Below are positions 8,446-60,390 of a DNA stretch of 64,000 nucleotides, piece after piece. How positions within the stretch are numbered: the first letter of the stretch is position 1; each line of letters starts with the position of its first letter. The translations under genes were made by a program, and so were the position numbers. Location: the NCBI GenBank assembly GCA_003024785.1, contig PUQB01000034.1, positions 31,083 to 95,082 on the forward strand, read 5' to 3'. The stretch is from Selaginella tamariscina. Its lineage: Eukaryota; Streptophyta; Lycopodiopsida; Selaginellales; Selaginellaceae. The notes under the pieces are model-generated. The model ran no database searches, was not told the DNA's origin, and worked only from the letters and a program-made list of their open reading frames with translations.

Positions 8446-8513
8446 TGTGCTAGTGTAAAAGATTGATAATATTTGGTTTTAGAAACTACTACAAATGTGA
8501 GTTTTGGACAATT
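8446..8513 (-). repeat. Half of the conserved promoter hairpin
   Basis: This is the distal part of the inverted repeat found complete at 17646-17732, 31595-31681 and 60391-60477. Here one arm is cut by the gypsy LTR at 8445. The remaining arm reads ACAAATGTGAGTTTTGGAC. Confidence 0.6.
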
Positions 8514-8619
8514 TCACATAATTTACTGGCTTTTACTCAAAATATTATAATAAGATGATAGAAGTAAATAAAATGAGATATGCAACTTATATATAGTAAT
8601 ACACATTTATATCACATGG

Positions 8620-9450
8620 AAGGGGTGGCGGGATTAATTTTATCACCCTTCTATGCCTCCTAAACGGGTGGCACCCTGGATGGGTGTGCGGATTAATCCT
8701 ACAACCCTTCTTGATCCCCTGTATGGGGTGCGGGATTAATCTTACCACACTTCTCGATCTCAAAGAGAATTGGGGGCATTTATTTGGTACACCCCACCAA
8801 GTGATCAAGAAGTGGTCGGGATTGATTTGGCTCACCAATTCAGGAGACAGAGAAGGGTGGCAAGATTAATCCTACCACCCCTTCCATGCTTGGTAAATGG
8901 GATTAATCCTGCCCAGGACACTCTTATATGGATAATGGCGGTTGGTGGGATTAATCCCGCCGCACTCCGTGCAAGTCATGGGCAACATGATTGATCCCGC
9001 CACCCTTCTATGCCCAGTGAAGGGAATTAATCCTCCCACCATTTTCACGCCTCTTCGGAGGGAGGGTGGGATTAATCTCGTCACCATGCATAGAAGGGTC
9101 GGCGGGATCAATCATGTTGCCCATGACTTGCACGGAGTGCGGCGGGATTAATCATCCGCCCACTTAACACCATGTTTAACACCAAAATCATAGCTTCGGA
9201 GAGAGTTGTGGGCGGGATTAATCCTGCCACCTATTCCCTGTCGGTGAGAGTTGTGGGCGGGATTAATCATGCCGACTCTTCTTCGTTGAAGGGTGTTGCG
9301 GTAGGATTAATCCCGTTGCCTCTTCCTCATTAGAGGGAGTCGGCAGCGAGATTAATCCCACCGACTCTCTCCAACAGGAAAGAGTCAACGGCAGAATTAA
9401 TCCCGCTGACTATTCCTCGTTGGGGGAGTCGTGGGCGGGATTAATCCCAC
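8620..9450. repeat. Palindrome array (about 18 units)
   Basis: These are repeated copies of the 18-bp palindrome GGCGGGATTAATCCCGCC and close variants. In the right half (centres about 9219, 9264, 9308, 9353, 9398 and 9442) the spacing is 44-45 bp. The left half has more diverged units and irregular spacing, like the gene-proximal ends of other arrays. Spacers such as AGAGGGAGTCGGC recur. Short frames reading GGINPA or AGLIPP come from the repeat itself and are not genes. Confidence 0.9.
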
Positions 9451-9585
9451 CCACCAGTTGTATTAATCAAGAATGATATATCCCTATACATAATTATGTA
9501 TTATTGCACATGTATATTATTAAGCACCCGCAATTCAAATTTCTTAGAAATATTGCATAAACAGATATCATAAATAACACAATTA

Positions 9586-12012
9586 TTTATGTGCAGGACA
9601 ATATGTTTAATACTGGAGATAAAGTATGTCTTTTTTGGAACAACGAGATAGTACTGTGAAAGTTCCAAATGATAATGCATCATGTTATAATATTGCTTAA
9701 GGATCTTGTGTGTATGTATGGGTGAACACCATTTGCAGGCATGTTGAGGTTCCAGAAATAAAATTTGAGGAGGGTTCTCTTGTATTGTGGATTTAGATGA
9801 AGTCAAGATTGACACAGAATATGCAGAGTCATAAACAAATAGTAGTACGAGTTCACCAGATGATGGCTTGCCTGCTGTGATGGATGAGGTGATTCTCTTT
9901 CTTCATGAGATCGTGGTTGGGAGAGGCATCATTACAGCTATAAATCCAATGGAAGTGGTGTCAGAAGAGAAACTAGGGGCCGACTTTGTGGGTGTAGTTG
10001 TGACAGAGGTTTCACCTAATTGCACATTGCATCTTGGATCCCTCATGAGGCGGCAAACATATGAATTAAGACGACAAGATGGTTTGAGTTGGATTTCAAT
10101 AATAACAACCCATATTTGAAGAGCTTCCTTGGATTGGCCCTATTGTATTCATGAGTTGCAGATCTTCCTTTGCAAGTTTTGGCAAGAGGGTCAAGATGGA
10201 TCCTACATCTTCTGCAAGTGCTACTAGCATTTCCACGATTGACTGCTACAAGAAGAAGTGTTATCAAATGGCAGACCGGAATGAAATTACCCAATGTAGA
10301 CATGTCTTTCGTATGCTCACCCAAAAGCAAAGGCATGAGTTTGTATATGCTACACTAACTGGGTGTATTGATGGAATGGCCTTGGACATAGGTTATCAGA
10401 GTACATCCATGGTATTTAATAAGATGGCCATTTTCTTCAAAGCTTGGTACACTATATACGGGATCCCAAAGACCATGTTCTACCGTTGGAGGGATGAGTG
10501 GCTAGATGGAGTGTGAACTTCAGTACATGGGAACACTCGCCTGGTCAAAACCCACTCTCACATTATGGCAACCATAAAGATACTCAAGGCTTTTGTGGAA
10601 GCAAATGCAGATAAGATGCCTCACAAATGCCGAACCACAAATGCAGGGTATAGGAAAATCTCAAGGTTTTTCTTTCAATATACACTCAATTGAAGCTGTG
10701 TGAACATGTGAACAAGTGCATCAGTTTGATGGGGCTTCAAGTAATCTGCATTGGTACCTTCAACAACATATGGAATACTCATTTTAAGGATGTGGAGATT
10801 GCAAACACTCTAGCTTTTCCAAATGTGACACTTGTACATCATTGAAGGCTGCAAAGGTTTGTGCAAAAACCTTGGTGGAGATCAGTGCCATTCAAAAAAA
10901 AAATGGAGGCCCATATAATTACACAATAAACTTGCTGGTCTCAGTACTATGCACACTGCATGCTTTCTGTGTCACGCCCATCAAAATACCTATGCTTGAT
11001 TCATAACAAGATGGATTATTAAAAGACAGCATTCCAAAGCTCGTTGCAACACCAAAGTGCCTTGGAAATGTCATGGAACTTCTGATTTCATTGACATGGT
11101 GCTAACACATGGACACGGTTGTGAGTCATATGGACAATTTTTACTTCCACAATGGTCTAGCGACTCAATTTCATATTGGGTCATTGGCCATGTGTTTCAG
11201 AAACCTTGAAGCCCACTCATCTCAAAGTGAAGAAACAACACCTTCAACCTTTATATAATGCTACATTGAGGCTACTTGGGAATATGAGAGGCATTGTCAG
11301 CAACTTGCACAAAAAATAGATGGCCATGTTGAGAGTTCTAGTTCAGTGGAGGGATCTAGCTCAAATAGTGTGCATGTGTCCTCAACATCAAATAAGCTTC
11401 CTCGTCATTTGCTTTTACAGATGGATAATTGTGTAACCATAAGTAAATCATTTTAGTTAAGGGTTTCTCAAGCTCATACTTACTTTTATTTTTTAGATAT
11501 GTGCTAGCATACTTGTCAATGCTTGTTGCCAAAGGTGTGTTTAAGACAATCACGCTCAGTTTCCTTATGGTTGGTCACACTCATAAAGATATTGATGCGT
11601 TCTTCAGTAAGGTCTCCAATTCTACAAAAAGGAAAGGTGCATTTACCTTACCGCATATGATGGATCTTTTTGAAAAATTGCATCTCCAAAAAAAATTGTG
11701 CTTTGCTTGTGACTGAGGTGCCAGACTTCAAAAAGTTTCTCAAGGAGTATATAAAAGAGGGGAGTGATTATTTAGTTGGTCACCTTGTGCCGCTATAGTT
11801 TTTTTCTCCATAAGAGATGGTATACCTATTATGTAGTACAAGTTATGACCATCAAAGTAGGTGGTTACCAAAAGAGGGCTTAATGCTCTTCAAAAGTGGA
11901 GAGGATAGAAAGCCACTTCTCCTAAAAAGACAATCAAACCCTATTCCATTAAGTGCCCAGCTCAAGGAACAAGAGGTTATTATTGATGGCATCAAAAAAT
12001 ATGTGGCATGGG
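9586..12012 (+). pseudogene. RNase-H-like transposase-type gene, decayed, 3' end lost
   Basis: This matches the minus-strand genes at 24423-26333 and 62717-64000. Regions in order are a small beta-rich N-terminal part (9600-10100), a DNA-binding-like part (about 10200-10700, with RNEITQCRHVFRML and TMFYRWRDEWLDGV), a decayed middle, then DNC...SFLMVGHTHKDIDAFFSKVS (11390-11640). The last motif pattern occurs in a eukaryotic transposase-related family that I believe is the DUF7869 type. This copy keeps about 1.2 kb that the 24423 copy has deleted, but it carries several stops and frameshifts. It ends at about 12012 within the C-terminal region, where an array replaces the rest. Confidence 0.65.
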
Positions 12013-12029
12013 ATGCAAAAGAAGGGAGT

Positions 12030-12360
12030 CCGGCGGGATTAATCCCGCCAACTCATTCTCGCCGGAAAGAGTCAGCGGGATTAATCCCGCCAGACTCCCC
12101 CCGAGGAGGAAGAGGCGGCGGGATTAATCCTGCCGGCTCTTCCTTGTCGGAGGGAGTCCAAGGCGGGATTAATCCCGCCCACAATTCTTACGACGGGGAA
12201 TGGGTGGCGGGATTAAACCCGCACATAACTCTCTCCAAAACTATGATTTCAAAGAGATCTTGGGATAAATCCTGTCCCCAAATCTTTAAAATAGGGAAGT
12301 GGTGGCGAGATTAATCCCGCCACCCCTTCCCTGCCTCCTAAAATGGTTGGCAGGATTAAT
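12030..12360. repeat. Palindrome array fragment (about 8 units)
   Basis: These are copies of GGCGGGATTAATCCCGCC with centres at about 12040, 12082, 12125, 12170 and 12214, then looser copies. Sequence from here rightward matches about 27060 onward in the same orientation. This is therefore the start of the right-hand part of a new element copy, joined to an unrelated fragment on its left. Confidence 0.85.
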
Positions 12361-13640
12361 TAAGAGAGAATGTAAGAGAGTGAATCTTTATAAGTATTTT
12401 TAAATTTGTTTATAATACTTACTTGTAAACAGCACTGAAGGCGCCGTGCTTTCCTATAAAGAATAGCACCCAATTTAATCTCGCTCCTGAGATGATCACT
12501 ATGAAGAAAAAAGAAGATCTAAAGAGTGAAAAATACAGAAATGAAGAAACCCTTGCCGGAGAAAGAACCAGATCTGAATTTGAGTGGGAAATTAAATGCA
12601 TTTTCAAATTTACATGTCAGACCGACAATACATATGTCAGAAATTCAAATTTTTTAAAAAGAACAGAAAATAAAATTTAAGATGAGTTGACACAAATATC
12701 CGACACTCTGACATATCTCCAGTTCCAATAAGTATTTTAAAATTGCATTTAATATTATTCAAGTGATTCAAGCTGTTTAATATTACGAAATTTTAGACTA
12801 TATTCTACATTCTTAGTATTCAAGTATATTTATATTATATATATATATATAAAAATATATACTTATACAATAAATAAATTGATATATTATTATGTATCAT
12901 TTAAAATATATTCATAGTCTGTTTATTATTATTATTTTCTTAATTACTCGAGTATTTAGTTTTCATTTCCTAGTATCAATGGGATATTCTTTAATATTTT
13001 ATTAATATTTGAAGAATATTCTAATATTAACCTGATTATCATAATTAAATTAGTCTTGTTCTTAATTATTGCAGTAATTATTCTACATTTGTATATATTA
13101 ATGGGATTTTCTCAATTAATTTGTTATTATTTCAAGAATATTCATGTGTTAAACCTTATTATCAATATTAAATTAATACACACTATGAACATATTTTAAA
13201 TTATACATAATAATACATCATTTTATCTAAATATAGTCATATATAATTTTAATAATATATATATTAATATCATTTCCTTAATTACTTGAGTAATTAATCT
13301 TCTTTATATTAATGGGATATTCTTTATTATTTTCTTATTATTCCAAGAATATTCCAATATTAAACATGATTATGATAATTAATTTAGTTAATTATTTGAG
13401 TACTTAATTTACATTTGTATATATTAATGGGATTTTCTCAATTAATTTCTTATTATTTCAAGAATATTTCAATGTTAAACCTTTTTTATCAATATTAAAT
13501 TAATATATATTATTAAAACTATATATGGCTATATATTAGATAAAATCATATATTATTATGTATAATTTAAAATATGTTCATAGTGTGTTTATTAATATTA
13601 TTTTCTTAATTATTCGATGTTTGTTTTGCACACATATATA
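12361..13640. repeat. AT-rich internal block of the element
   Basis: This contains no gene. It matches 27600-28880. It starts with a conserved stretch (AGCACTGAAGGCGCCGTGC) and then has about four degenerate units beginning TTAATGGGAT and followed by AAGAATATTC, at about 12976, 13099, 13310 and 13425. Confidence 0.7.
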
Positions 13641-13854
13641 AACACAATCATAAATTTACACACGCATTACAAGAACTTACAAAAACACATATGCACACAC
13701 ATGCACAACCCTAAACCAAACTGAAGAAATAGGTTGCTTCTTTATTGAAAACATCATGTTCAACGCATGTATGATATATGTACTCAATCTGTGTGACTGT
13801 ATGTAACACATTGAATTTACATGTGTAATATTTATATTAAGCTTATTGGAAGCA

Positions 13855-13882
13855 AACCCTAAACCCTAAACCCTAAACCCTG
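13855..13882. repeat. Short interstitial telomere-type repeat
   Basis: About three and a half units of CCCTAAA, the plant telomere repeat, lie inside the element's internal block. The equivalent site in the copy at 28977 has only CCCTAAACC, so the units expanded in copy I. Confidence 0.8.
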
Positions 13883-14448
13883 TGTATACATGTGTGTACA
13901 AAAATAATTTTTCAACACTCTCTCTTCACACCATGCATGATCCATCCTAAACCCTAATATGTAACACAATGAATTTACTCATGTAATATGTATGTATGTC
14001 TGTGTGTATACACGTGTGCATGTATATATGTGTACTTTCTGTCTTCTCTCATACATACACACCATGCATGATCCATGTTAATATGTACTGTCTCTCTTCT
14101 CTCAAACATACACACCATGCATGATCCATAATATGTATTGTCACTCTTCTCTCATACATACACCCACGCACACGCACGCACACGTGATACACCCACGCAC
14201 ACGCACGCACACGCACGCACATGTGATACACCCACGCACACGCACGCGCTAATAATATAATGAAAGAATATTCGTTTAGGGCGAATCTATATTTTATTCT
14301 TGTTAGGGTTTAAGTATATTCTCAGAAGGAATATTCTATTAGGGTTAATATATATATTTAATTCCTTTAGGGTTTAGTTATATTCTTAGGGTTTCAAGAG
14401 GTGGCGGCTGTGAAATCGGCAGCGGCGGCTGTGCACACAGGTGAGATC

Positions 14449-14481
<33 letters not shown>

Positions 14482-14748
14482 ATATGTATAGGAGTGTGCG
14501 TATAAATTTATTTATTAGTTTTATCTCTCGCACACACACGCACATTCCTGTGTATGTATATGTGTGTGTGGGTGTGTGTTTGTTTATCTGTATGATTTTA
14601 TTTGTTTCGCTCACACACGCATACACACGATATACATATACACATATATATATATACCTATATACATATATACATACATATATTATGTGTACCAGTATCT
14701 GTAAATTTTTTTTTATTGATCTATCTCTCCCACACACACGCACACTGC

Positions 14749-14793
<45 letters not shown>

Positions 14794-15170
14794 TATATAT
14801 ATATATATATATCAATGCATATTAACAAATAGTATACAACACTAGTTTATATATATGCTTATATATTCATATGGGTTATATATCTATATACACACATATA
14901 TATGTGTGTGTGTTTATCTGTATAATTTTATTTATTTATTAGTTTTATCTCTCGCACACACACGCACATTCCTGTGTATGTATATGTGTGTGTGGGTGTG
15001 TGTTTGTTTATCTGTATGATTTTATTTGTTTTGCTCACACACGCATACACACGATATACATATACACATATATATATACCTATATACATATATACATACA
15101 TATATTATGTGTACCAGTATCTGTAAATTTTTTTTTATTGATCTATCTCTCCCACACACACGCACACTGC

Positions 15171-15236
<66 letters not shown>

Positions 15237-15985
15237 ATCAATGCATATTAACAAATAGTATACAACACTAGTTTATATATATGCTTATATATTCATATGG
15301 GTTATATATCTATATACACACATATATATATGTGTGTGTTTATCTGTATAATTTTATTTATTTATTAGTTTTATCTTTCGCACACACACGCACACTCCTG
15401 TGTATGTATATGTGTGTGTGTGTGTGTGTTGTTTATCTGTATGATTTTATTGTTTCGCTCACACACGCATACACACAATATACATATACACATATATATA
15501 TACCTATATACATATATACATACATACAACACTAGTTTATATATATGCTTATATATTCACAGACTCTCTCTCTTTCTCTATGGATTATATATTTATATAC
15601 ACACATATATATGTGTGTGTTTATCTGTATAATTTTATTTTTTATTAGTTTTATCTTTCGCACACACACGCACACTCCTGTGTATATATATGTGTGTGTG
15701 TGTGTTTGTTTATCTGTATGATTTTATTTGTTTCGCTCACACGCATACACACGATATACATATACACACATATATATACCTATGTACACACATATATTAT
15801 GTGTACCAGTACTGTATAATTTTATTTATTTATCTATCTCTTGCACACACACGTACACTCCTATACATACATACATACATACATATATATATATATATAC
15901 ACACACACACATATATATATGTGTGTGTTTTTATCTGTATAATTTTTTTATTTATTAATTTTATCTCTCGCACACACGCTAAGGC
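13883..15985. repeat. Microsatellite block with about 420-bp tandem units
   Basis: The block is CA/TG-, TA- and CACGCA-rich. Within it a larger unit recurs at about 14519, 14941, 15367 and 15650, each starting near TTTTATCTCTCGCACACAC or a variant. The first two periods are about 422 and 426 bp and the third about 283 bp. Open frames here encode Tyr-Ile-His-Thr low-complexity strings and are not genes. Confidence 0.85.
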
Positions 15986-15989
15986 CCTT

Positions 15990-17540
15990 CGAGCGGCGGG
16001 ATTAATCCCCCCGCTATAGGTTTATAGCCTCGGCGGCGGGATTAATCCCGCTGCTATATGGTTGGGGCCATGGCGGCGGGATTAATCCCGCCGCCGCGGC
16101 CCTTCACGTAGGCTATGGGCGGCGGGATTAACTCGCCGCTGTACGACAAACCGAAGAGCGGCGGGATTAATCCCGCCGCCCATGGCCTGCGTGAGGGGCC
16201 TCGGCGGCGGGATTAATCCCGCCGCCCATGGCCTGCGTGAGGGGCCTCGGCGGCGGGATTAATCCCGCCGCTCACCCATGCCCTGCGCGGAATGCGGCGG
16301 GATTTATCTCGCCGGCAATGGCCTGTGTGAAGGCCCTAATGGGCGAGATTAATCCCCCGGATTCCGCACAGGGCATTTACAGGGGATGGGCGGCGGGATT
16401 AATCCCGCCGCCCAGGGAATTCACGCAGGACATGAATGGCGGATTAATCCGGCCCCACGCTCATGCCCTTTGCGGAGGGCGGCGGGATTAATCCCGCCGC
16501 TCAGGCACTTCCGCAGGATATAAGCGGCGGGATTAATCCCCCCCACCCATCCCTGTTCAAAATGCCGCAGCCAATATATATGTGTGAGCGCATGATTTAC
16601 GAGAGGGCGGCGGGATTAGTCCTCTCCGAACCTTCATTACCCGGTGGCGGGATTAATCTCCGAACCTTCATTACCCCATTGGTATGTTGAATCAATCCCG
16701 ACTAACTCTGTCTGAGACGGAGAAGGTTTACAAAATACCAATGGAGGGAACTAGAAGGGTGGTGGGATTAATTTCACCATCCCTTACATGGTGGGCGGGA
16801 TTAATCCCGCCGCGTACGCATGCCCTGCGCGGAATCGGGCGGGATTTATCCCGCCGCCATTGGCCTGCCTGAAGGGCCTAGGCGGCGGGATTAATCCCGC
16901 AAGATTTCGCACAGGGCATTGGCGGCGGGATTAATCCCGCCGACGACTAAGGCCCGAGTGAAGGGCCTGGGAGGCGGGATTAATCCCGCCGGACGCCATT
17001 CCCTGCGCGGAATCGGGCGGGATTATCCCGCCGCCATTGGCCTGCTGAAGTGCCTAGGCGGCGGGATTAATCCCGCCCGATTCCGCGCAGGGAATTGGCG
17101 TCCGGCGGGATTAATCCCGCCGCATAGGGACCGAGTGAAGGCCCTGGGCGGCGGGATTAATCCCGCCGAGTCTTCAATGCCTGTTGGAGGAATGAATCCC
17201 GCCACCCTTCCTTTTTTCTCCATTGGTGAGTCGGACCAATCCCAAACGTTTCTGTCTGAGACGTAGAAGGTTTACAACATACCAATGGAGAGAATGGGAA
17301 GGGTGGGGAAATTCATTTAACCATCCCTTACATGGTGGGCGAGATTAATCCCGCCCCTTTCTGGAGTCACTGAAGGGGTGTGAGAAATAAATCCTGCCCA
17401 GTTCTCTCTGAGACCGAGAAGGGTGGCAAGATTAATTCCGCACTCCCGTTCAAGGCCTCCAGAAAGGTGGCGAGATTAATCCCGCCCACTCTTTCAGGAG
17501 GCATTGAAGGGGTGGCGAGATTAATCCCGCCGCACCTTCC
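15990..17540. repeat. Palindrome array, gene-proximal (about 30 units)
   Basis: This is the longest array in the window. The left part has spacers of the CATGCCCTGCGCGGAAT and GAAGGGCCT type with 39-46 bp spacing; the part closest to the gene has longer spacers (for example around 17180-17540). Spacers occur in both orientations, so neighbouring units are themselves mutually inverted. Equivalent arrays are at 30426-31480 and 60590-61545. Confidence 0.9.
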
Positions 17541-17645
17541 ATGTGAATATATATGTGTATTAGTATATATAAGTTGCATATCTCATTTTATTTACTTTTA
17601 TCATCTTATCATAATATTTCGAGTAAAAGCTAGGAATCTATGTAA

Positions 17646-17732
17646 AACTGTCCAGAGCTCACATTTGTGGTGGTTCTAAAACGAAATGTTATCTTTCTTT
17701 TGCACTAACACAAATGTGAGCTTCGGACAGTT
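17646..17732. repeat. Conserved 24-bp inverted repeat (hairpin) upstream of ParB-like gene
   Basis: The left arm 17646-17669 (starting AACTGTCC) and the right arm 17709-17732 (ending GGACAGTT) are inverted copies separated by about 39 bp. The same structure at the same place is found at 31595-31681 and 60391-60477. It lies between the palindrome array and the transcribed region, so it may be regulatory, a recombination site, or a small nested insertion shared by all copies. Confidence 0.75.
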
Positions 17733-17874
17733 AATTACGTCTACTTCTCTCTGTGTATTATTTTTGTATATTCGGGTTTATACAAGTGTGTGTGCGTTTT
17801 TATATAATTTATATTTATAGTGTATTATTTTGCAGAAGGACGATTTGATCAAACAAGGAGATCGAGTCATTAGT

Positions 17875-20800: not shown

Positions 20801-20970
20801 CAGATATTAGACCGGAAGTTATCTCGAGGAGTACAGAACATTCGCACACTCCAGGACCCATGGAAACATCAATAGAAGATGCAGAAGATCTTGAACCATC
20901 TCACAAGCGGCTTAGACCTTCTTCGCCTCACTCAGAAGGTAATAGCGAAGAAGAATTGATAATGAATTGA
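17875..20970 (+). CDS. ParB-like / degenerate DNA-methyltransferase-like protein, copy I
   Basis: Proposed exons are 17875-17897, 17959-19267, 19329-20171 and 20225-20970, with short introns and good GT-AG borders. The copies at 31824 and 60249 support them. The N-terminal part (to about 18500) is unrecognised. A ParB/sulfiredoxin-like segment at about 18715-19015 includes YYIISGQHTITAAQ, like the ParB G.HR..AA motif. A Lys-rich linker follows at about 19470-19570. The C-terminal part looks like a permuted amino-methyltransferase: a DPPW-like position reads LLDSETLWG (about 20020), and the later SAM-motif position reads VFDYCTRGSVLKE...AVEKD (about 20560-20635). Both catalytic signatures are degenerate, so binding rather than methylation is likely. 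An acidic Ser-rich tail ends the protein. Single-base homopolymer losses (for example near 18497 and 19870) break this copy, and the 60249 copy is intact at those points. Function is inferred from fold-like similarity only. Confidence 0.6.
19268..19328 (+). promoter_or_regulatory. Intron of ParB-like gene carrying one array palindrome
   Basis: This 61-bp GT-AG intron contains GGCGGGATTTATCTCGCC (about 19285-19302), a one-off copy of the array palindrome. The inverted copy of the gene has the same insertion (about 58815-58832). It is the only such palindrome I see inside a gene of the element. Confidence 0.7.
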
Positions 20971-21173
20971 TAGAGTGAGAATAGTTGTAAATGAGTGTAA
21001 CATAAGGCATTTTTGTATATTTCTTTTATATTTGTACAGAAAATAAATTCTCAAGGATTAATGAAGCTTTTAGTTCAAACATGGGTCACACATTAACAAG
21101 GTAAATAATATACCTTGATAATTTTAAGGTCAGCTAATTATCATTTTGCAGATGTAATGAAATAATTGAGAAC

Positions 21174-22407: not shown

Positions 22408-22695
22408 AAAATTAACATGTTGATAAGAAAATGATTTCATTTGTAATTATGTTTGATAGTATTTCTTCATTATTGTAAACTATTTTTAGAATAATATGAA
22501 TATTCTAAGATATTTTAGGAATATTCCTTACTAAGTAAGGTTATTGAAGGATTAATTAATTAATTAATTAATATTTAAGGCTTAATTACATATTAATTAA
22601 ATGATTAATTAATAATTAAAACTTAAGTATTAATTAGTAATTTATTTTATATTCCCATTTTCACGTATCATGCCCACTTTAGTTACAACGTGCAT
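22408..22695. repeat. AT-rich right end and terminal inverted repeat of copy I
   Basis: Several TTAATTAA-rich runs precede the terminus. The last 27 bp (22669-22695) are the inverted counterpart of the left termini at 23915, 53806, 61697 and 62220. Read inward from 22695, the terminus is ATGCACGTTGTAACTAAAG. Confidence 0.75.
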
Positions 22696-23914
22696 TCTTA
22701 CAAGATTCAGATATTGCACATGCTAGAGAAAGTGATTTAGGAACTTAAGGCGATGATGCATAAACTAAAAGAATTAACAACCTCAATTATAATATTCTTT
22801 TGTAACTTGTCAAGACAAGTAATCCCCGTAGTGAAGATGTTTTGAGCTGCATTGTTGTACATTTCCTACATGAACTATGTCATTCTGATGTGGCACTATT
22901 AATTTTTGTCATACCCCTCTTACCTCATGCCACTATTGAAAATCCTTGTACTCAACTGTTTTATTACATAAAATTATAGTTAACTGGCCTTATAGTTACC
23001 AAGGTATATTATTTACCTTGTTAATGTGTAACCCATGTTTGAATTAAAAGCTTCTTTAGTCCTTGAGAATTTATTTTTATACAAATATACACAAAATATA
23101 CAAAAATACCTTAATATGTTACACTCATTTGTAACTATTTTTACTTTAACAATTCATGTTCCATGTTACCTTCTGAGCCAAGTGAAGAAGGTTTTAACCG
23201 CTTGGGAAATTATTCAACATCTTATGTTTCTTCAGTTGATGTTTCCATGATTAGTAGAGTAATTGAATGTTATGTACTCTTTGAGATAATTTCGATGTGA
23301 TATTTGGTTTAGGATCGTCCTCAGATTCTGACATCGAACAAGATTCCTCCTTAGAGCTGTTGCAATTCTCAGAAGGGAACTTTCTCAAATACTCTTGTAT
23401 GGGTTTGTTCAGGTAGTCAATTGAGAATCTCTTTATCCACTTGTTCAAGTTCTCGATCATGGTCGTACATTGCCGAATACGTCCCTCTTGGCTATCGTTG
23501 TATTGGATGAAGATTTAAGTCCATTGGAGCGAAACAAATGCTTGGCCAGTTGTTTAGAAGTTTGAAATTGTTTGGTGCATTCTTAACAATTAAGTGAACA
23601 ATCATATCAATACACCTAGGATCAGCATCATTAATATAAATCCAATCTAGTGATGTATGTTCTTCTTGGCGAAAACAAAGGCAAAAGTACCGATGATATG
23701 AACAAAATCAGAAATTAAATACCTGAAAATGTAAGTATTAGGTAAGTGTGCAAAAATTAAATAATAAGTGTCTTCTTTGTATATGCTTGCACAATTAAGC
23801 TTTTCTATTAAATCTTCTAGCGCCTTTTCCAAAGAAGGATTTTTGACACCTGTCAATCCATCATGACCATTTGAAACGATTTCCTACAGGCAGTAATGTT
23901 ACCCCATAAAGTCT
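22696..23914 (-). pseudogene. Older inverted copy: FCP1-like 5' end and ParB/MTase-like 3' end
   Basis: On the minus strand, 22696-22945 matches the 5' region of the FCP1-like gene and 22980-23914 matches the 3' part of the ParB/methyltransferase-like gene (for example MIENLNKWIKRFSIDYLNK at about 23460, and the acidic tail). The fragment is bounded on both sides by termini of younger copies: copy I ends at 22695 and copy II begins at 23915. Divergence is clearly higher than between other copies, so it is the oldest layer. Confidence 0.75.
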
Positions 23915-23941
23915 ATGCATGTTATAACTAAATGGGCATGG
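23915..23941. repeat. Left terminal inverted repeat, copy II
   Basis: It begins ATGCATGTTATAACTAAA and then TGGGCATGG. It matches the termini at 53806, 55435, 61697 and 62220, and inverted at 22695. The flank matches gene sequence found uninterrupted at about 58080, which fixes the boundary. Confidence 0.75.
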
Positions 23942-24422
23942 CTATAGTCCCATTTCCTAATAATTAGCAATTTTAGCTATTTAATTAACATTTTCTAATA
24001 TTAAAGGAATATTCTTTAGAATATATGTTTGAAAAAAAAATATTCTTTAAAATATTCTATTTTGTATTCGACCCTTTAATAAATTATAGCATTCATTGAA
24101 CAAAAATTAATAACATTATAAAAGTAGAAAGTATTAAATTATATAATATATTGCCTAATATAACAATTAAGGAAGAGCATAAGAGGTACATTATATAAAT
24201 ATTGATGTTGTTATTAAAATATTAATATTTAAATATAACATTATTAATTAAAAATTTGTAGTAGTAATAATATATAATATAAATCCTATAATAATATAGT
24301 CAATCTTCCATATCATTTTTTAAATTTATATAGTTAAGTAAACAATTTGGTACTATTATTAAAGAGTTTATAATATATTATAGAATATTAAATATATGAT
24401 ATTTTATAATTTTGTAATTGCT
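23942..24422. repeat. AT-rich left subterminal region, copy II
   Basis: This contains no gene. It is nearly identical to 61724-62210 and 62247-62716, and more diverged from 53830-54356, which shows it is a fixed part of the element's left end. Confidence 0.75.
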
Positions 24423-26333
24423 TTAAGCTTCAGAAAACATACATTCCCTTGCAGTTTTGTTAATCGTGACTTTATCAACGCTTCTTGACATCCACCCATA
24501 TCGAATGGATTTAACATTTATAAAACATGCTGGGTCTTTTTGATTGGGAGACCATCATGTTTTCTATAGGCATCCATTATATCTTTCGCTCTCCTTCTCG
24601 TGTCGCCTTTTTTGTGGTTTGAACCATGCAACCTTAACAATACTATTTTTTGTGATTACTTCAGGTGTGTCGATAATTTGACCCATCCAAATAGGCTGAT
24701 TATATGACGCATCTGGAGTAATGAGAACCATCATTAGTTTTTGAAGATCCTTGCAGCAATCAAAGTATGCTTTAGGTTTTTGGTTCCTTTGTTCAACAAA
24801 GTGTAGAGTTTGCACTTCCACATCACTACTGGCTTCTATGTCGTCTGTGCTCAGTGATGTCATTTCAATCTCCTCTCGCCACCTTGTTTTAGACCAAAAA
24901 GGGTGTTGCAATTCTGTACTTGTGACAATAGGCCCTTCCAACTCTCGAACAACAGTCTCCCAATAGTCAACCACATGCTTATATAGTTCTGAGTAACCAG
25001 TTGCCTTATCAGAATTCTTTGGCATTGATTTTTGAACCCATGCCACATATTTTTTAATGCCATCAATAATAACCTCTTGTTCCTTGAGCTGGGCACTCAA
25101 TGGAATAAGGTCTGGTTGTCCTTCTGGGAGAAGTGGCTTTCCATTCTCTCCACTTTTGAAGAGCATTAACCCCTCTTTCGGTAACCACTCCTGCTATGAT
25201 GGTCGTAACTTGTACTGCATAATAGGTATACCATCTCGTATGGAGAAAAAGAATTGTAGCGGCACAAGGTGACCAACTAAAGAATCACTCCCCTCTTTTA
25301 TATACTCCTTGAGAAATTTTTTAAAATCTGGCACCTCAGTCACAAGCAAAGCACAACTTTTTTGGAGATGCAGGTTTCAAAAAGATTCATCATATGCGGT
25401 AAGGTAAGTGCACTTGGCCTTTTTGTAGAGTTGGAGACCTTGCTGAAGAACGCATCAATATCTTCATGAGTGTGACCAACCATAAGAAAACTGAGCGTGA
25501 TTGTTTTAAACACACCTTTGGCAACAAGCATTGACAAGTATGCTAGCACATATCTAGAAAATAAAAGTAAGTATGAGCTTGAGAAACCCTTAAGTAAAAT
25601 GATTTACCTATTTTTGTAAAATGACAACACTTCTTCTTGCAGTAGTCAATCGTGGAAATGCTCGTAACACTTTCGGAAGATGTAGGATCCTCTTGCTGAA
25701 ACATGCAGGGGAAGATCTGCAACCCATGAATCGCCTTTTTCTTATAATAGGACTAATGCAAGGAACCTCTTCAAATATGAATTGTTCTTCCGGGTTGTTA
25801 TTATTGAAATCCAACTCAGAATATGTTGAACCATCTTGCCGTCTTAATTCAGATGTTCGCCACCTCACGAGGGATCCAGGATGTAAAGTGCCATTAGGTG
25901 AAACCTCTGTCACAACTACACCCATGAAGTCGGACCCTAGTTTCTCTTCTGACACTGCTTCCATTGGATTTATAGCTGTGATGATGCCTCTCCCAACCTC
26001 AATCTCATGAAGAAAGAGAATCACCTCATCCATCACAGCAAGCAAGCTATCATCTGGAAAACTCGTGCTATTGTTTGTTTGTGACTCTGTATATTCTGTG
26101 TCAGCCTTGACTTCATCCAAATTCCACAATACAGGAGAACCCTCCTCAAATTCCATTCCAGGAACCTCAACATGCTTGAAAATGGTGTTCACCCATACGT
26201 ACACACAAGATCCTTGGGCAATATTGTGACATGATGCATTATCATCTCGAACTTCCACAATTCTAGTGCCAACTATCTCGTTGTTCCGAAGAAGACATAC
26301 TTTATCTCCAGTATTATACATATTGTCCTGCAC
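24423..26333 (-). pseudogene. Transposase-type gene, copy II, internally deleted
   Basis: The N-terminal half is open from about 26333 (the first certain Met lies a few codons in, because GTGCAG there may be a splice acceptor) to about 25620. About 1.2 kb that is present at 10262-11430 is then missing. The frame resumes with LAYLSMLVAKGVFKTITLSF and SFLMVGHTHEDIDAFFSKVS (25549-25430), then a C-terminal region including WMGQIIDTPEVITKNSIVKV, which looks like a small beta-barrel reader-type segment. The stop is at 24423. Loss of the middle removes the DNC motif found in the copy at the right window end. The likely role of the intact family is transposition of this element, by position and motif, but that is inferred. 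Confidence 0.65.
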
Positions 26334-26479
26334 ATAAATAATTGTGTTATTTATGATATCTGTTTATGTAATATTTCTAAGAAATCATAACTGCGGTTGC
26401 TTAATAATATGCATGTGCAATAATACATAATTATGTATAAAGATAATATCTCATGCTTTATTAATTTATTAACTAATGG

Positions 26480-27520
26480 GTGGGATTAATCCCGCCGCAG
26501 ACTTTACTCCTTCAGAGTGAGTCAGCGGGATTAATCCCGCCGTCAACTCTACCCCATCAGAGAGAGTCGGCTGGATTAATCCCGCCGCCAATACTTCCTC
26601 GTCGGAGAGAGGCGGCGGGATTAATCCCGCCGCGGGCTCCCTCCGACGAGGAAGTACCGGCGGGATTAATCCCGCCGTGGGCTCCATCCGACGAGGAAGT
26701 ACCGGCGGGATTAATCCCGCCGTGGGCTCCATCCGACGAGGAAGTAGCGGCGGGATTAATCCCGCCGTCGACTCTACCCCATCGGAGAGAGTCGGCTGGA
26801 TTAATCCCGCCGCCAATACTTCCTCGTCGGAGAGAGGCGGCGGGATTAATCTCGCCGCGGGCTCCCTCCGATGAGGAAGTACTGGCAGGATTAATCCCGC
26901 CGCGGGCTCCCTCCGATGAGGAAGTAGCGGCGGGATTAATCTCGTCGCGGGCTCCTTTCGATGAGGAAGTACCGGCGGGATTAATCCCGCCAGCGGATCT
27001 TCCTCGTCTATGAGAGTCGGCGGGATTAATCCCGCCGCAAATTCCTCCGACAAGGAAGAGGGGGCGAGATTAATCCCGCCCACAACACTGACGATGGAGA
27101 ATAGGCGGCGGGATTAATCCCGCCCACAACTCTGACGACGGGGAATAAGCGGCGGGATTAATCCCGCACACAACTCTCCGAAACTATGATTTCAAAGAGA
27201 TTCGGGATGAATTCTGCCCACAAATATTTAAACAGGGAAGTATTGACGAGATTAATCCTGCCACCCCTTCTCTGCCTCCTAAAAGGTTGGCAAGATTAAT
27301 TCCGCTGACAACTCTTTCTAATAAATTCAAGTAAATCATTATCAATTGAGAGAGTTATCGACTGGATTAATCTTGCCGCTCTTTTTAAGAGGCGGAGAAG
27401 CATTGCCCGAACTAATTCTGCCATAACTATGAAAGAGATGGTGGTAGGATTAATCCCGCTACCTCTTCAAAGAGGCGAAAAAAAAATGGCCGGATTAATC
27501 CCGCTGCCCCGGCTAACCGA
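26480..27520. repeat. Palindrome array with strict 45-bp period (about 20-24 units)
   Basis: Centres of GGCGGGATTAATCCCGCC fall at about 26487, 26532, 26577, 26622, 26667, 26712, 26757, 26802, 26847, 26892, 26937, 26982 and 27027, exactly 45 bp apart, then 44 bp, then looser. The 27-bp spacers are of the CTTCCTCGTCGGAGAGAG type in either orientation. The array lies just upstream of the transposase-type gene. Frames on both strands stay open across it only because the period is a multiple of three. Confidence 0.9.
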
Positions 27521-28900
27521 GAATATTAAGTTAAAGGTATATTTAAACAGAATAAATCCCTAACAGAATATATTGTAATCCTAATGCATTCCTAAATCCC
27601 TAAATTCTAAAATTTAAGAGAGAATGTAAGAGAGTGAATCTTTATAAATATATCTAAATTTATTTATAATACTTGTAAACAGCACTGAAGGCGCCGTGCT
27701 TTCCTATAAACAATAGCGCACCCAATTTAATGTCGCTCCTGAGCTGATCACTAAGAAGAAAAAAGAAAATCTGAAGAGTGAAAAATAAAGAAATGAAGAA
27801 ACCCTTGCCGGAGAAAGAACCAGATCTGAATTTGAGTGGGAAATTAAATGTATTTTCAAATTTACATGTCAGACTGATAATACTTATGTCAGAAATTCGA
27901 AATTTTTGAAATAACAAAAAAGAAAATTTAAAATGAGTTGAAACAAATAACCGACAGTCTGACATATATACTCTCCAATTCCAATGAGTGTTTTAAAATT
28001 GCATTTAATGTTATTCAAGTGCTTCAAACTGTTTAATATTACGAAATTTTTGTAATTGTTCTACATTCTTAATATTCAAGTATATATTATTGAGTTTTAT
28101 TATATATATATATACACTAATACAATAAATAAATTGATATATTATTATGTATCATTTAAAATATATTCATAGTATGTTTATTATTATTATTTTCTTAATT
28201 ACTCGAGTAATTAATTTACATTTCCTACTATTAATGGGATATTCTTTATTATTTTCTTAATATTGAAAGAATATTCCAATATTAAACCTGATTATCATAA
28301 TTAAATTAGTCTTATTCTTAATTATCTCAGTAATTATTCTACATTTCTATATATTAATAGGATTTTCTCAATTAATTTGTTATTATTTCAAGAATATTCC
28401 TATGTTAAACCTTATTATCAATATTAAATTAATATATATTATTAAAACTATATATGACTATATATTAGATAAAATGTATTATTATGTATCATTTAAAATA
28501 TGTTCATAGTGTGTATATTAATTTCATTTTTTTAATTACTTGAGTAATTAATCTTCTTTATATTAATGTGATATTCTTTATTATTTTCTTATTATTCCAA
28601 GAATATTTCAATATTAAACATGATTATCATAATTAATTTAGTTAATTATTTCAATACTTAATCTACATTTGTATATATTAATGGGATTTTCTCAATTAAT
28701 TTCTTATTATTTCAAGAATATTCTAATGTTAAACCTTATTATCAATATTAAATTAATATATATTATTAAAACTATATATGGCTATATATTAGATAAAATC
28801 ATATATTATTATGTATAATTTAAATATGTTCATAGTGTGTATATTAATATTATTTTCTTAATTATTCGATGTTTGTTTTGCACATATTATATATAAACAC
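27521..28900. repeat. AT-rich internal block, copy II
   Basis: This matches 12361-13640 and has the same conserved start near AGCACTGAAGGCGCCGTGC. I see no gene in it; the 101-codon frame at 27660-27965 is not conserved as an open frame in copy I. Confidence 0.7.
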
Positions 28901-30055
28901 GATTATAAATTTATATATACATGTGCACACGCATTAGAAGCACTTACAAAGACACATATGCACACACATGCACATTGCCCTAAACCAAACTTGAGAAATT
29001 ATATGTTGCTTCTTTATTGAAAAACATCATGTTCAACGCATGTATGATCTATATATACTCAATCTGTGTGTATGTAACACATTGAATTTACACATGTAAT
29101 ATATATGTATGTTTGTGTGTATACACATGTGTATGTATATATGTGTACTAATATATGCAATGTGTACGGTTTTCATTTGTTAACACTCTATCTCTTCTCT
29201 CATACATACACAGTGTCACCATGCATAATCCCTTCTCTCATACATACACACCATGCATGATCATGATCCATAATATGTAGCCTGTCTCTTCTCTCATACA
29301 TACACACCATGCATGATCCATAATATGTATTGTCACTCTTCTCTCATACATACACACCATATATAATCCTGTACTCTGTCTCTCTAATATTAATATGTAC
29401 TAATATGTATGTATGTCTATGTGTATAATACTATGTGTGTATATATGTATCGCTGCACGTGAAACTTTAACACTCTCATGGACACACACGTGTTAAACCC
29501 TTGCATGATATTTATTCTTGGGGTGTATGTGATACACCCACGCACACGCACACGCACACGCTGATAATATAATGAAAGAATATTCGTTTAGGGCGAATCT
29601 ATAGTTTATTCTTTTTAGGGTCTAAGTATATTCTTAGAAGGAATATTCGATTAGGGTTAATATATATTCTATTCCTTTTAGGGTTTAAGTATATTCCTAG
29701 GGTTTGTAAGGCGGCAGCAGCGGCGGCGAAATCTCCTTCTCTCTCTCACACATGTGAGATCTCTCTCTTCTCTCTCTCACACGCACACTCCTCTGAGTTT
29801 ATTTATTTATTTTTATTCACATATATATTTATATGTGTGTGTATCTTAATAATATAATTTAGATCTCTATCTCTCGCACACACGCACACTCGTATACATA
29901 TACACACACAGATATATATATATCCTTCTCTTTTCTCTATAGATCTCTATCTCTCGCACACACGCACACTCGTATACATATACACACACACACAGATATA
30001 TATATATCTGTGTGACACAGATATATATATATATATATATATATCTGTGTGACAC

Positions 30056-30094
<39 letters not shown>

Positions 30095-30425
30095 TCTATT
30101 TATTTATTTATATATGTGTGTGTGTGTTTGTTTATCTATATGATTTTATTTGTTTCACACATGCATACACACGATATACATATACAATATATATAGATAT
30201 ACCTATGTATACATACATATATTATGTGTACCAGTATCTATATAATTTTATTTATTTATCTATCTCTCGCACACACACGCACTCTCCTGTATATACATAT
30301 ACATATACATATATTGTGTGTGTGTGTGTATCTGTATAATTTTTCTTTAATTTGACTATCTTTGGCACACACACGCACTCTCCTACACACACATATACAT
30401 ATATATATCTGTGTGTGTGTGTGTG
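28901..30425. repeat. Microsatellite block, copy II
   Basis: Repeats of CA/TG, TA and ACGCACAC type correspond to 13883-15985 but are shorter and lack the multiple 420-bp units. Several copies of CATACATACACACCATGCAT lie at about 29210-29360. No gene is seen. Confidence 0.75.
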
Positions 30426-31480
30426 TAGCGGTGGGATTAATCCCGCCGCTATATGGTGAGACGTGTGTAGCGGCGGGATTAATCCCGCCACTATATGATT
30501 AGCCACTCGGCGGCGGGATTAATCCGCCGCTCATTCGTTACCCTCATGAGTGGCAGGATTAATCCCGCCGCCATTTCAGGAAGGTTATTTGGTTAGCCAA
30601 ATGAGCGGCAGGATTAATCCCTCTGCACATGGCCCTAGTGAAGGGCCTGGGCGGCGGGATTAATCCCACCGCGTACGCATGTCCTGCGCAGAATCGGGCG
30701 GGATTTATCTCGCCGCCAAAGGCCTGCCTAAAGGGCCTAGGTGGCGGGATAAATCCCGCCGGATTTCGCACAGGGCATTGGCGTCTGACGAGATTAATCC
30801 CGCTGCGTATGCATGCCCTGCACAGAATCGGGCGGGATTTCCCGCCGCCAAAGGCCTGCCTGAAGGGCCTAGGCGGCGGGATTAATCCGCCGGATTCCGC
30901 ACAGGGCATTGGTGTCCGACGGGATTAATCCCGCCGCGTATGCATGCCCTGCGCAGAATTGGGCGGGATTTATCTCGCCGCCAAAGGCTTGCCTGAAGGA
31001 CCTAGGTGGCGGGATTAATCCTGACCGATTCCGTGTAGGGCATTGGCGTCCGGCGGGATTAATCCTGCCGCATAGGGACCGAGTGAAGGGACTGGGCGGC
31101 GGATTAATCCCGCCAAGCCTTCAATGCCTGTTAGAGGGATGAATCCCGCCACCCTTCCTTTTTTACTCCTTTGGTGAGTCGGACCAATCCCAAACGTTTA
31201 TGTCTAAAACGTAGAAGGTTTACAACATACCAATGGAGAGGACTGGGAAGGGTGGCGAGATTTATTTCACCATTCTTACATGGTGGGCGAGATTAATCCC
31301 GCCGCCTTTCTAGAGTCACTGAAGGGGTGTGCTAAATAAATCCTGCCAAGTTCTCTCTGAAACCGAGAAGGGTGGCAGGGTTAATCCCGCACTCCTATTC
31401 AGGGCCTCCAGAAAGGTGGCGAGATTAATCCCGCCCACTCTTTCAGGAGGCATTGAAGGGGTGACGAGATTAATCCTGCC
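30426..31480. repeat. Palindrome array, gene-proximal, copy II (about 20 units)
   Basis: This corresponds to 15990-17540 with the same spacer families (CATGCCCTGCGCAGAAT, AAAGGCCTGCCT) but fewer units. The last four units near the gene have longer spacers that match copy I closely. Confidence 0.9.
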
Positions 31481-31594
31481 GCACCTTCCATATGAATATA
31501 TATGTGTATTAGTATATATAAGTTGCATATCTCATTTTATTTACTTTTATCATCTTATCATAATATTTCGAATAAAAGCCAGTAAACTATGTAA

Positions 31595-31681
31595 AACTGT
31601 CCAAAGCTCACATTTGTGGTGGTTCTAAAACCAAATATTATCTTTCTTTTGCACTAGCACAAAGGTGAGCTTTGGACAGTT
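31595..31681. repeat. Conserved hairpin upstream of ParB-like gene, copy II
   Basis: Arms are at 31595-31618 and 31658-31681, starting AACTGTCC and ending GGACAGTT. Position relative to the gene is the same as in copies I and V. Confidence 0.75.
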
Positions 31682-31823
31682 AATTCCGTCCACTTCTCTC
31701 TGTGTATTATTTTTGTATATTTGGGTTTATATAAGTGTGTGTGCGTTTTTATATGATTTGTATTCATAATGTATTATTTTGCAGAAGGACGATTTAATTA
31801 AACAAGGAGATTAAGTCATTAGT

Positions 31824-33198
31824 ATGGAGTCGTCGTCAAATTCAGGGTAAGAATTAAAATAAAATCTGTTATACTCGGATATGTGCTTGAAGAATTAATC
31901 ATTTTTGTATTCAGATGTGGAATTGAGGTGGCATTGAAGACGAGAGCAGGAGAAGAAATGGGCAGGGGGATTCTGGAAACAACTTGGCCATATTTCAAAC
32001 TAAACGGGAAGCGCATTGGAACAACCATGGTTGCTGTCAAACTAACCTCTATCACATCGCATGGACAAGCAAAACAATGGAAAGTGGGTGTGCTAGTCAA
32101 GCATTCGAAAGCATGCTGCAAACCTAGATTGAGCGATGCTCGAAACATATGCCTTGTTCCATCCAATGTCACGTTCTCGGATCCAGAGGTCACCAGTTAC
32201 AACATTAATTTCGGGTGGTTTTGTCGACTTGTGGATAATGACGTTCACGTGTTCACTAATGATGTTGACCGTGGAGTTCTTCTTCAACTCAACGAAAGCC
32301 CATCTATGGAGGGGATCCAACTGAATGTTTATTTCGAAGATCTTCATACTCATCGAGTAGGTGTATTCTCAGCAGAGATTGCTTCACAATACAAAAAGTC
32401 CACAAGTGGAGCAATCTTCCCTCTTCACATTGAAGAAGAACACAGCGACACCATTAAGGAGATTGAGAGGGTGGCTTGGTCTTAGGTTCTTTATAGATCA
32501 CATTCAATTTGCTTAGCAAATTTCGGGAGCTGAAAAAGTGTGCCGAGAACATTAAAACAGCATCAATCGGGGATCACACATGTTGATTCGGATCATAAAA
32601 GAAAATCATTAGTCGTTTTGTCAGCTGCACCTGTGGCGTCCCATGCTGCAATAAGCCACAAGGAAATGATGTTGGATGATAGAATTTACGAGTGTAGGGT
32701 TAAGTATTGCAGCGTCAACCCAAACTTCAATTACAGGCCACTCAATCAAGAACGTGTAACTGAGCTCATGGAGAAGATGAAGGATGACAATTCTTACACC
32801 ATTCCACATAATGCTGTTTTGTGCGCATACTACGAAAAAAACAAAGGCGCTGACAAAGTGTGGATCACAACACCGGAACAAATAAGGAAGGTTCAAACGG
32901 AGAATAGAAAATCAATCAAGTACTACATCATTAGTGGCTAGCACACAATAATGGCAGCCCAACGACTTCTCGACGAACACAACAAAGGAACAATGGCAAC
33001 AAAACTTTTCGAGCATACCCGTGAGAAGCTGACGAAAAGATTGGCGTTTTTAGCGAAGCCGAATCTCATAATCAAACAGTACCATAAGTTATCGGCGGAA
33101 TGGGACGCTGCAGACACCAACCACTACAACAGCAAAATATGGGAGAAGTTCAAACACACGCGAGCCGTGTGAGAATCTCTTCAGCGACCACAAAGAGC
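31824..33198 (+). pseudogene. ParB/methyltransferase-like gene, copy II, truncated
   Basis: It opens with the same short first exon and intron as copy I. The N-terminal region (to about 32480) and the ParB-like region are well kept. The Gln codon of the ISGQHT motif is TAG at about 32939 (CAG in copies I and V), a C-to-T nonsense change. A frameshift lies near 32480. The gene stops at about 33198, before the methyltransferase-like part, where Ty3/gypsy integrase sequence begins. Confidence 0.7.
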
Positions 33199-39683: not shown

Positions 39684-39719
<36 letters not shown>

Positions 39720-55434: not shown

Positions 55435-55718
55435 ATGCACGTTGTAACTAAAGTGGGCATGATATGTGAAAATGGGAATATAAAATAAATTACTAATTAA
55501 TACTTAAGTTTTAATTATTAATTAATATTTAATTAATATGTAATTAAGCCTTAAATTATTAATTAATTAATTAATCCTTCAATAACCTTACTTAGTAAGG
55601 AATATTCCTAAAATATCTTAGAATATTCATATTATTCTAAAAATAGTTTACAATAATTAAGAAATACTATCAAACATAATTACAAATGAAATCATTTTCT
55701 TATCAACATGTTAATTTT

Positions 55719-60249: not shown

Positions 60250-60390
60250 ACTAATGACTCGATCTCTTGTTTAATTAAATCGTCCTTTTGCAAAATAATA
60301 CACTATGAATACAAATCATATAAAAATGCACACACACTTGTATAAACCCGAATATACAAAAATAATACACAAAGAGAAGTGGATGGAATT

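Follow-up and report, generated by a model that had tools for sequence, protein, structure and literature searches.

The 64-kb stretch of Selaginella tamariscina DNA analysed here (positions 31083-95082 of contig C660, henceforth the window; the assembly comprises 300.7 Mb in 1391 contigs) contains copies of a large DNA transposon, which very probably represents an autonomous, recently active cut-and-paste family of this plant, about 14 kb in length. From left to right, the element comprises a transposase gene of the DUF7869 family, a first array of short palindromes, a spacer, a second array, a gene that we term gene B, and a gene for a phosphatase of the NIF/FCP1 type. The transposon itself is firmly established, while the function of its arrays is one that we infer. 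An earlier reading of the window, made from the sequence only, had proposed an element of roughly 13.8 kb with three cargo-like genes and two palindrome arrays; what it observed has been partly confirmed, and its interpretation is supported in part. Its claim that three copies share one order of genes and repeats is borne out by self-comparison of the window, in which 17105-22695 and 61023-55435 are 94% identical, and 16975-19233 and 30920-33198 are 91% identical. These copies are the following:

12025..22695, + strand: copy 1, which keeps its right end but has lost its left part and starts inside array 1
23915..33198, + strand: copy 2, which keeps its left end; at 33198 other repeat sequence takes the place of its right end
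55435..61696, - strand: copy 3, reversed, with its right end at 55435 and cut short at 61696/61697, where a different element starts with its left end

Complete copies across the assembly

Ten pairs of facing termini (E1-E10), picked only for having two such termini, were fetched in full and found to span 13,800-14,845 bp. All ten match the three genes and the two arrays in one order, so that copies complete in both termini and genes, which the sequence-only reading had proposed to look for in the genome, do exist, in favour of the element. Its full-length estimate, joined from two window copies, was roughly right, apart from the fact that copy 2 lacks about 1.18 kb and that complete copies range up to 14.85 kb. 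Most of the C-terminal part of the transposase is missing in E8, and the reading frames are broken to a varying degree in all ten copies. An eleventh complete copy, C607 (14,694 bp), has retained open reading frames (ORFs) for the transposase (572 and 392 aa) and for gene B (478, 304 and 273 aa), with the first transposase codons out of frame and the phosphatase gene broken; among the copies examined, none has all three genes open together.

The 18-position end occurs in the assembly 1670 times in the forward and 1605 times in the reverse orientation, as compared to no occurrence of the pattern read backwards. By our own count, 36 of the first 100 terminus places form 18 inward-facing pairs 10-16 kb apart, which, extrapolated to 3275 ends, gives a crude figure of about 590 near-complete copies, based on the first contigs only. 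Gene B is free of stop codons in 84 of the 98 matches scored in the assembly (those of the window included), and this is a lower bound, as the 98 were drawn from 6543 first-look candidates. Two equal-scoring copies of gene B lie on one strand 15.7 kb apart (C533:358162 and C533:373816), possibly in tandem elements.

Terminal inverted repeats and target site duplication

The terminal inverted repeat (TIR) of the family, ATGCANGTTGTAACTAAARTGGGCATG, is imperfect and extends over 27 bp before the left and right ends diverge; E1, E6 and E8 depart from this form at one or a few bases. Inverted repeats are present at both ends of 19 pairs, which were picked among the first 100 terminus places for facing each other at a distance of 10-18 kb. 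Six matches to the terminus with up to 3 mismatches are present in the window, at 22678-22695 (-), 23915 (+), 53806 (+), 55435 (+), 61697 (+) and 62220 (+), whereas shuffled controls yielded 0.45 on average and never more than 3. Four of them are left ends (23915, 53806, 61697 and 62220) and two are right ends (22695 and 55435). The terminus noticed by the sequence-only reading is real, but each of the three copies shows one end only, the right one in copies 1 and 3 and the left one in copy 2:

23915..23940, + strand: left TIR of copy 2, with one change and one base fewer than the family form
22669..22695, - strand: right TIR of copy 1
55435..55461, + strand: right TIR of copy 3

Target site duplications were sought in 20 insertions, comprising the ten complete copies, eight further pairs, one pair 18.1 kb apart and one element of 245 bp. 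An exact duplication of 4 bp was found in 10 of the 20, as opposed to 5 of 380 mismatched pairs of flanks, and its sequence varies (TTAA at the 245-bp element, ACAT, CAAT, AAGG, AACG, CTAT, TATC, ATTA, AAGA and TCTA). Among the ten insertions without an exact duplication, E1 is off by one base and F8 shares three bases; the flanks of C607 also exhibit no 4-bp duplication. Insertions without matching flanks may have arisen by recombination between copies. The duplication is corroborated by an empty site, a comparison suggested by the sequence-only reading: E2 is inserted inside another copy of the family, and once one ATTA is removed, its joined flanks read like the corresponding stretch of window copy 2, apart from point changes. 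The 245-bp element (C1:1443135-1443379, L047) is non-autonomous, carries one left-type and one right-type end, and is a miniature inverted-repeat transposable element of the family.

The DUF7869 transposase

The transposase gene is located at the left end of the element and transcribed toward that end. In the window it is represented by two main stretches:

24423..26321, - strand: transposase gene of copy 2, with an intron near 25570-25605, an internal deletion and a broken frame
62717..64000, - strand: C-terminal part of the transposase gene in a nested element (DUF7869, E 7e-28)

The stretch of about 1.18 kb deleted from copy 2 is retained, according to the alignment, in an old copy at 8446-12024. 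The Pfam family PF25273 (DUF7869) is matched with 98 bits in the window and with 94.1 and 48.2 bits in C607, compared to a curated cut-off of 26 bits. Its relatives (57 proteins, 27-80% identical over 13-96% of the query) come from a liverwort, molluscs (bivalves among them), corals, sea urchins, a ribbon worm and metagenomes. The motifs D...D...HTHEDID are conserved among these proteins, and a DDE-type fold is predicted for one relative, which together with the Pfam match supports the earlier assignment of an RNase-H-like, transposase-type gene. At the C-terminus of the DUF7869 transposase P0002 (residues 493-614), we identified a BAH-like domain, whose nearest neighbours by fold are the plant histone readers SHL and EBS; the corresponding part of the window lies near 62717-63175 on the minus strand.

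The N-terminal part of the protein is less informative. The N-terminal ORF of copy 2 gave no Pfam match above the cut-off, and the first transposase ORF retrieved from the PDB only the ribosomal protein bL32m (E 0.5 and 1.1), which we take as chance. A weak match of copy 2 to Transposase_23 (TNP1/En/Spm), below the cut-off (E 0.098), is absent in C607. A 37-residue stretch of gene B resembles this match, and 6 of 3000 shuffles were as good; the idea of an N-terminal domain shared by the transposase and gene B was rejected, as the likeness is weak and its link to Pfam is gone in C607. Among the 50 rows listed by VIA-align there was no hAT, Mutator or piggyBac transposase, an absence that by itself excludes nothing.

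The DUF7869 protein is presumably a DDE/D transposase of the RNase-H fold, which would cut at the two inverted repeats and insert the element into a target cleaved in a staggered manner, whence the 4-bp duplications; its C-terminal BAH-like domain may read chromatin. The name 'DUF7869' appears in no paper of the open-licence literature, and no transposase with a BAH domain was found there among the matches listed (titles and beginnings of abstracts). DUF7869 proteins elsewhere belong to the same transposase family and appear in these searches as proteins only; for one family, the element structure, the ends and the duplication are given here. A widespread domain filed as unknown thus acquires a likely function, that of the transposase of a large inverted-repeat element, and the ends and target duplication provide a handle for finding the elements of its relatives.

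Gene B and the phosphatase gene

Both remaining genes are transcribed toward the right end of the element:

17875..20970, + strand: gene B of copy 1, for which splice signals point to four exons; the frame is broken here and open in C607
31824..33198, + strand: N-terminal half of gene B of copy 2 (P0058 is a translation from 31913 that reads through four stop codons)
21241..22407, + strand: phosphatase gene of copy 1 (HAD, NIF/FCP1 type), whose frame is open (PF03031, E 1.6e-12)

The product of gene B, about 975 aa long, is an orphan. It gave no match in Pfam (E ≤10), NCBIfam or PADLOC (E ≤1), or phage genomes (E ≤10), and none among 5.8 billion proteins (candidates 0.55-1.75 times as long as the query; in one search, the 7999 with most words in common were scored). 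The best PHROGs match of its pieces was a family of unknown function (E 0.096). Its middle region had no match in the PDB; in its C-terminal part, one 39-residue stretch retrieved two designed toroid proteins (E 6.5e-6 and 0.017), although no single stretch passed by itself. This is a hit, but we take it as an artefact of repeat composition. The structure modelled from the single sequence (pLDDT 37) was unusable. The ParB/methyltransferase label of the sequence-only reading finds no support in the profile searches (Pfam at E ≤10, PHROGs and NCBIfam at E ≤1) or protein searches, and the model is too poor to lend any. The motif-like stretches behind it, YYIISGQHTITAAQ and DYCTRGSVL, are visible by eye; however, the arginine of the ParB motif and the methyltransferase motif DPPY are both absent. 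We suggest that gene B is best treated as an orphan. No ParB-bearing plant transposon was found among the matches listed in the open-licence literature (titles and beginnings of abstracts).

The assignment of the last gene as FCP1/HAD-like is upheld by Pfam: the phosphatase of copy 1, with an open frame of 403 aa, matches PF03031 with 47.9 bits, compared to a cut-off of 21.8 bits. No match was obtained in the PDB by sequence. A scan of viral contigs for close relatives returned one pattern match, which was not confirmed. To judge from its family, the enzyme may act on proteins of chromatin or transcription. Extra enzyme genes are also known from fungal DNA transposons, which carry a TET/JBP dioxygenase gene thought to counter silencing (PMC12730594); the enzyme and the kingdom differ, and the likeness concerns gene content.

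The large size, the several genes and the inverted ends are also compatible with an integrated virus or a Polinton-like element, an explanation that we consider hardly credible. Polintons (Mavericks) generate 6-bp duplications, as opposed to 4 bp here, and encode a polymerase and capsid proteins; the ORFs of C607 of at least 90 aa outside the three genes were read by eye, and not scanned with profiles, as low-complexity or antisense, with no polymerase or capsid gene among them. Gene B has no phage match, and its PHROGs score and the lack of a confirmed viral relative of the phosphatase speak against a virus as well.

Relation to known transposon superfamilies

The length of the target duplication is 8 bp in hAT and P elements, 8-11 bp in Mutator, 2-3 bp in CACTA and 3 bp in PIF/Harbinger, and piggyBac uses a fixed TTAA; a 4-bp duplication of varying sequence rules all of them out. 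Helitrons, which encode Rep/helicase and have neither inverted repeats nor duplications, are ruled out by the presence of both. The statement of the sequence-only reading that the element matches none of hAT, Mutator, CACTA, PIF and Helitron is thus supported by the duplication. Cryptons use a tyrosine recombinase, and no Crypton-type Pfam family was matched by the three genes in general scans, none of which was aimed at Crypton.

A more serious alternative is that the family belongs to the Sola or Academ superfamily of Repbase, neither of which the sequence-only reading had taken into account, and that only its two extra genes and its arrays are new, which we regard as a genuine possibility, though not quite a probable one. 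Sola elements generate 4-bp duplications, as do Academ elements in part, with DDD/E chemistry, and the duplication found here fits. DUF7869 is found in a liverwort, in corals and in bivalves; from bivalves, PMC10294476 reports Sola1, Sola2 and Academ. According to the same source, curated elements of molluscs have mean lengths of 5.4 kb (Sola1) and 5.6 kb (Academ), as opposed to about 14 kb here, a contrast in size that falls short of a test of this assignment. The Repbase paper (PMC4455052) provides the list of superfamilies and the PSI-BLAST rule that decides membership. Among the matches listed in the open-licence literature (titles and beginnings of abstracts), no paper on transposon superfamilies was found to contain the family.

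The palindrome arrays

Both arrays consist of repeats of one 18-bp palindrome, GGCGGGATTAATCCCGCC. With up to 4 mismatches it is matched 107 times in the window, compared to 0, 1, 0, 0 and 0 times in five Markov controls; all 107 matches lie inside family copies, with spacings of 44-46 bp being the commonest:

26479..27505, no strand: array 1 of copy 2, located upstream of the transposase gene, 21 units, most of them at intervals of 45 bp
12032..12321, no strand: remnant of array 1 of copy 1, 6 units
15995..17531, no strand: array 2 of copy 1, 28 units, upstream of gene B
30430..31480, no strand: array 2 of copy 2, 20 units
60595..61539, no strand: array 2 of copy 3, 18 units
19284..19301, no strand: single palindrome in the gene B intron, 2 mismatches

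The two arrays of the sequence-only reading are present in the window and recur in all eleven complete copies, where array 1 has 8-16 and array 2 has 5-28 units and roughly half to seven tenths of the spacings measure 42-48 bp; the intron site is found in 10 of the 11. Between the arrays lies an AT-rich spacer of 3-3.6 kb. Telomere-like AAACCCT units are present in the spacer of copy 1, at 13854-13881. In C607, with up to 3 mismatches, there are 35 array units (22 of them exact) and one unit in the gene B intron, and 22 of 33 spacings fall within 42-48 bp. The cores of its two arrays are 0.97 identical, a value somewhat raised by selecting units with up to 3 mismatches, from which the exact units are independent; their spacers are 0.546 identical, compared to 0.525 for shuffled spacers. 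The two arrays are one palindrome set in unrelated spacers.

What acts at these palindromes can be approached by comparison with VANDAL elements of Arabidopsis, which are transposons of the Mutator type. In VANDAL21, the protein VANC21 binds a motif arrayed by tandem repetition upstream of VANA and in the introns of VANB and VANC, according to PMC5735166. Judging from this and PMC10398659, the two systems are alike in combining a transposase with accessory genes and in having a short family-enriched motif, dense in non-coding regions upstream of the transposase gene and in accessory-gene introns; here, the motif occupies such regions in 11/11 (arrays) and 10/11 (intron site) complete copies. 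They differ in that our family has a DUF7869 transposase, a 4-bp duplication, a gene B without known relative and an added NIF-type phosphatase, and in that its motif is an 18-bp palindrome spaced near 45 bp, whereas that of VANDAL is the 9-base YAGTATTAY. For VANDAL, VANC is reported to bind the motif and to counteract silencing; in our family, such a role is a prediction.

Since two diverging transcription units each have an array upstream, with an additional copy in an intron, as in VANDAL21, gene B appears the most likely reader of the palindromes and protector of the element. Its product would bind the palindromes upstream of both units and in its own intron, and would maintain transcription of the element and ward off silencing, in the way VANC acts for VANDAL. 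That some element-encoded protein acts at the palindromes in regulation or anti-silencing has, on this analogy, nearly an even chance of being correct. A bolder version, which we consider somewhat unlikely, holds that DUF7869 defines an undescribed, eukaryote-wide superfamily of transposases, of which a plant lineage independently evolved self-protection of the VANC kind: the orphan DNA-binding gene B would recognise the palindromes about 45 bp apart, located at both promoters as well as in its own intron, and would strip or block silencing, with the BAH-domain transposase and the NIF-type phosphatase as chromatin-facing partners.

The main rivals to recognition by gene B are host factors of the E2F type and binding by the transposase. 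The half-site GGCGGGA resembles the E2F core, and the palindrome (GGCGGGA and TCCCGCC around TTAA) could be regarded as two inverted E2F-type sites, by which the element, with its arrays upstream of both transcription units, would borrow S-phase promoter expression. This appears distinctly unlikely, given that the entire palindrome including its TTAA centre is conserved (exactly in 22 of the 35 units of C607), and that a host factor requires neither this, nor the common spacing near 45 bp, nor the intron copy. Alternatively, the arrays could be structural, either as sites of transposase binding or synapsis, like the subterminal repeats of En/Spm, or as products of hairpins or replication slippage with no protein partner, which we find unlikely, if less so. 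The sub-cut-off Transposase_23 match in copy 2 and the 37-residue likeness in gene B are in line with such a role, as are the palindromic nature of the units and the partly inverted spacers in array 1 (0.70 identity of a spacer to the reverse complement of the next, compared to 0.64 directly). However, both arrays are far from the termini: the distance to the left end is about 3.7-4.5 kb for array 1 (in E8, 2.8-3.5 kb), and that to the right end about 5-7 kb for array 2; the occurrence of the same core in two arrays with unrelated spacers is not explained by slippage alone, and the Transposase_23 match is absent in C607.

In a matched-unit test on the three window copies, the cores have not changed significantly less, which argues against strong selection in recent copies. 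In the ten copies aligned to C607, C/G transitions were counted at CpG and elsewhere, giving 32/2324 and 116/5854 in the arrays, 69/3943 and 268/26825 in the genes, and 23/932 and 175/9577 in the rest of the element; the ratio of observed to expected CpG is 1.07 in the arrays and 0.40 in the transposase gene. This suggests that the arrays undergo less methylation-driven decay, with C607 serving only as a stand-in for the ancestor. Searches of the open-licence literature for the motif and for motif strings returned no paper, which for the motif tells neither way. Recognition by gene B would make the family a possible second plant case of a transposon carrying its own array-reading regulator.

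Age and selection

Over the right-hand 3.4 kb, E1, E3, E4, E5, E7, E8, E9, C607 and window copy 1 are 0.0-0.7% apart, while a second group (E2, E6, E10 and window copy 3) is 2.2-3.3% away from the first. Over the left 1.7 kb, where E8 is omitted owing to its deletion, E1, E4 and C607 are 0.0% apart and E9 differs by 3.5-4.8% from all others. Because some copies differ by only 0-0.7%, the movement must be recent, and the family may still be moving. This makes both the function of DUF7869 and that of the arrays testable in the living plant.

Selection was measured by Nei-Gojobori dN/dS between window copies. The C-terminal part of the transposase yielded 0.26-0.50 in six pairs (Fisher p <0.01 in five), and the N-terminal half of gene B 0.26-0.35 in three pairs, as point estimates only. 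The first part of exon 3 of gene B yielded 0.067 (p 1.4e-7) and the later parts 0.25-0.58 in six pairs, two of which (copies 1 and 3) are not significant. The phosphatase gene gave 0.29 between copies 1 and 3 (p 0.047) and 0.48 in comparison with an old fragment (p 0.08 and 0.18). We read these values as suggesting that all three genes were kept functional during the spread of the family. 'Cargo' is probably the wrong word for gene B and the phosphatase gene, as both have dN/dS below 1 and both stay with the element.

Organization of the window

Besides copies 1-3, the window contains five further pieces of the family:

8446..12024, - strand: old decayed reversed copy, with the transposase region absent from copy 2 and no central spacer
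22696..23914, - strand: old reversed fragment that covers the 3' part of gene B and the beginning of the phosphatase gene and hosts the insertions of copies 1 and 2
53806..55434, + strand: left end of a further element, inserted into an LTR-like repeat at 53805 and interrupted by copy 3
61697..62219, + strand: left end of one more element, situated within copy 3 and broken by the element that follows
62220..64000, + strand: left end of the last of these elements, lying within the one before it and running off the window

Two boundaries of the sequence-only reading had to be revised. Its left terminus at 12013 ('ATGCA') was rejected, as the four-copy alignment shows that ATGCAAAAGAA at this place is the transposase sequence ATGCCAAAGAA of the old reversed copy with 11 bp deleted; the transposase sequence of that copy joins array 1 at about 12024. 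Position 61696, given as an end of copy 3, is in fact where the left end of another element starts. The same reading had stated that every boundary is supported by an uninterrupted target elsewhere, and this holds for five of the six junctions: the LTR-like repeat contains the target of 53805, further left-end copies contain those of 55434 and 62219, and the old reversed fragment those of 23914 and 22695 (the flank at 22695 was read by eye). The flank at 61696 runs into copy 3 with no clean uninterrupted match. Self-targeting was considered, since 5 of the 6 window junctions lie in copies of the same family, yet a family flank was found at only 2 of the 20 genome insertions; the window pattern is therefore taken to look like local nesting. 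The nest at 53806-64000 comprises an element in the LTR-like repeat, copy 3 inside it, another element in copy 3 and yet another in that one. In the old copy, arrays 2 and 1 lie close together at 8446-9460, and the 3-kb AT-rich microsatellite spacer is missing, by deletion or because this is an older form.

Judged from its host genes, the window is plant DNA: a profile scan identified genes for a phytochrome (PHY, 1.5e-59), an SBP-domain protein (3.1e-13) and a PC-Esterase (1.3e-41). They lie between transposon copies at 34950-42379, with the phytochrome gene on the minus strand. The region 48796-52899 contains, by eye, fragments of an LTR-retrotransposon pol gene followed by tandem repeats that seemingly encode chromodomain-like segments and that, by self-comparison, are spaced about 350 bp apart with 93-96% identity.

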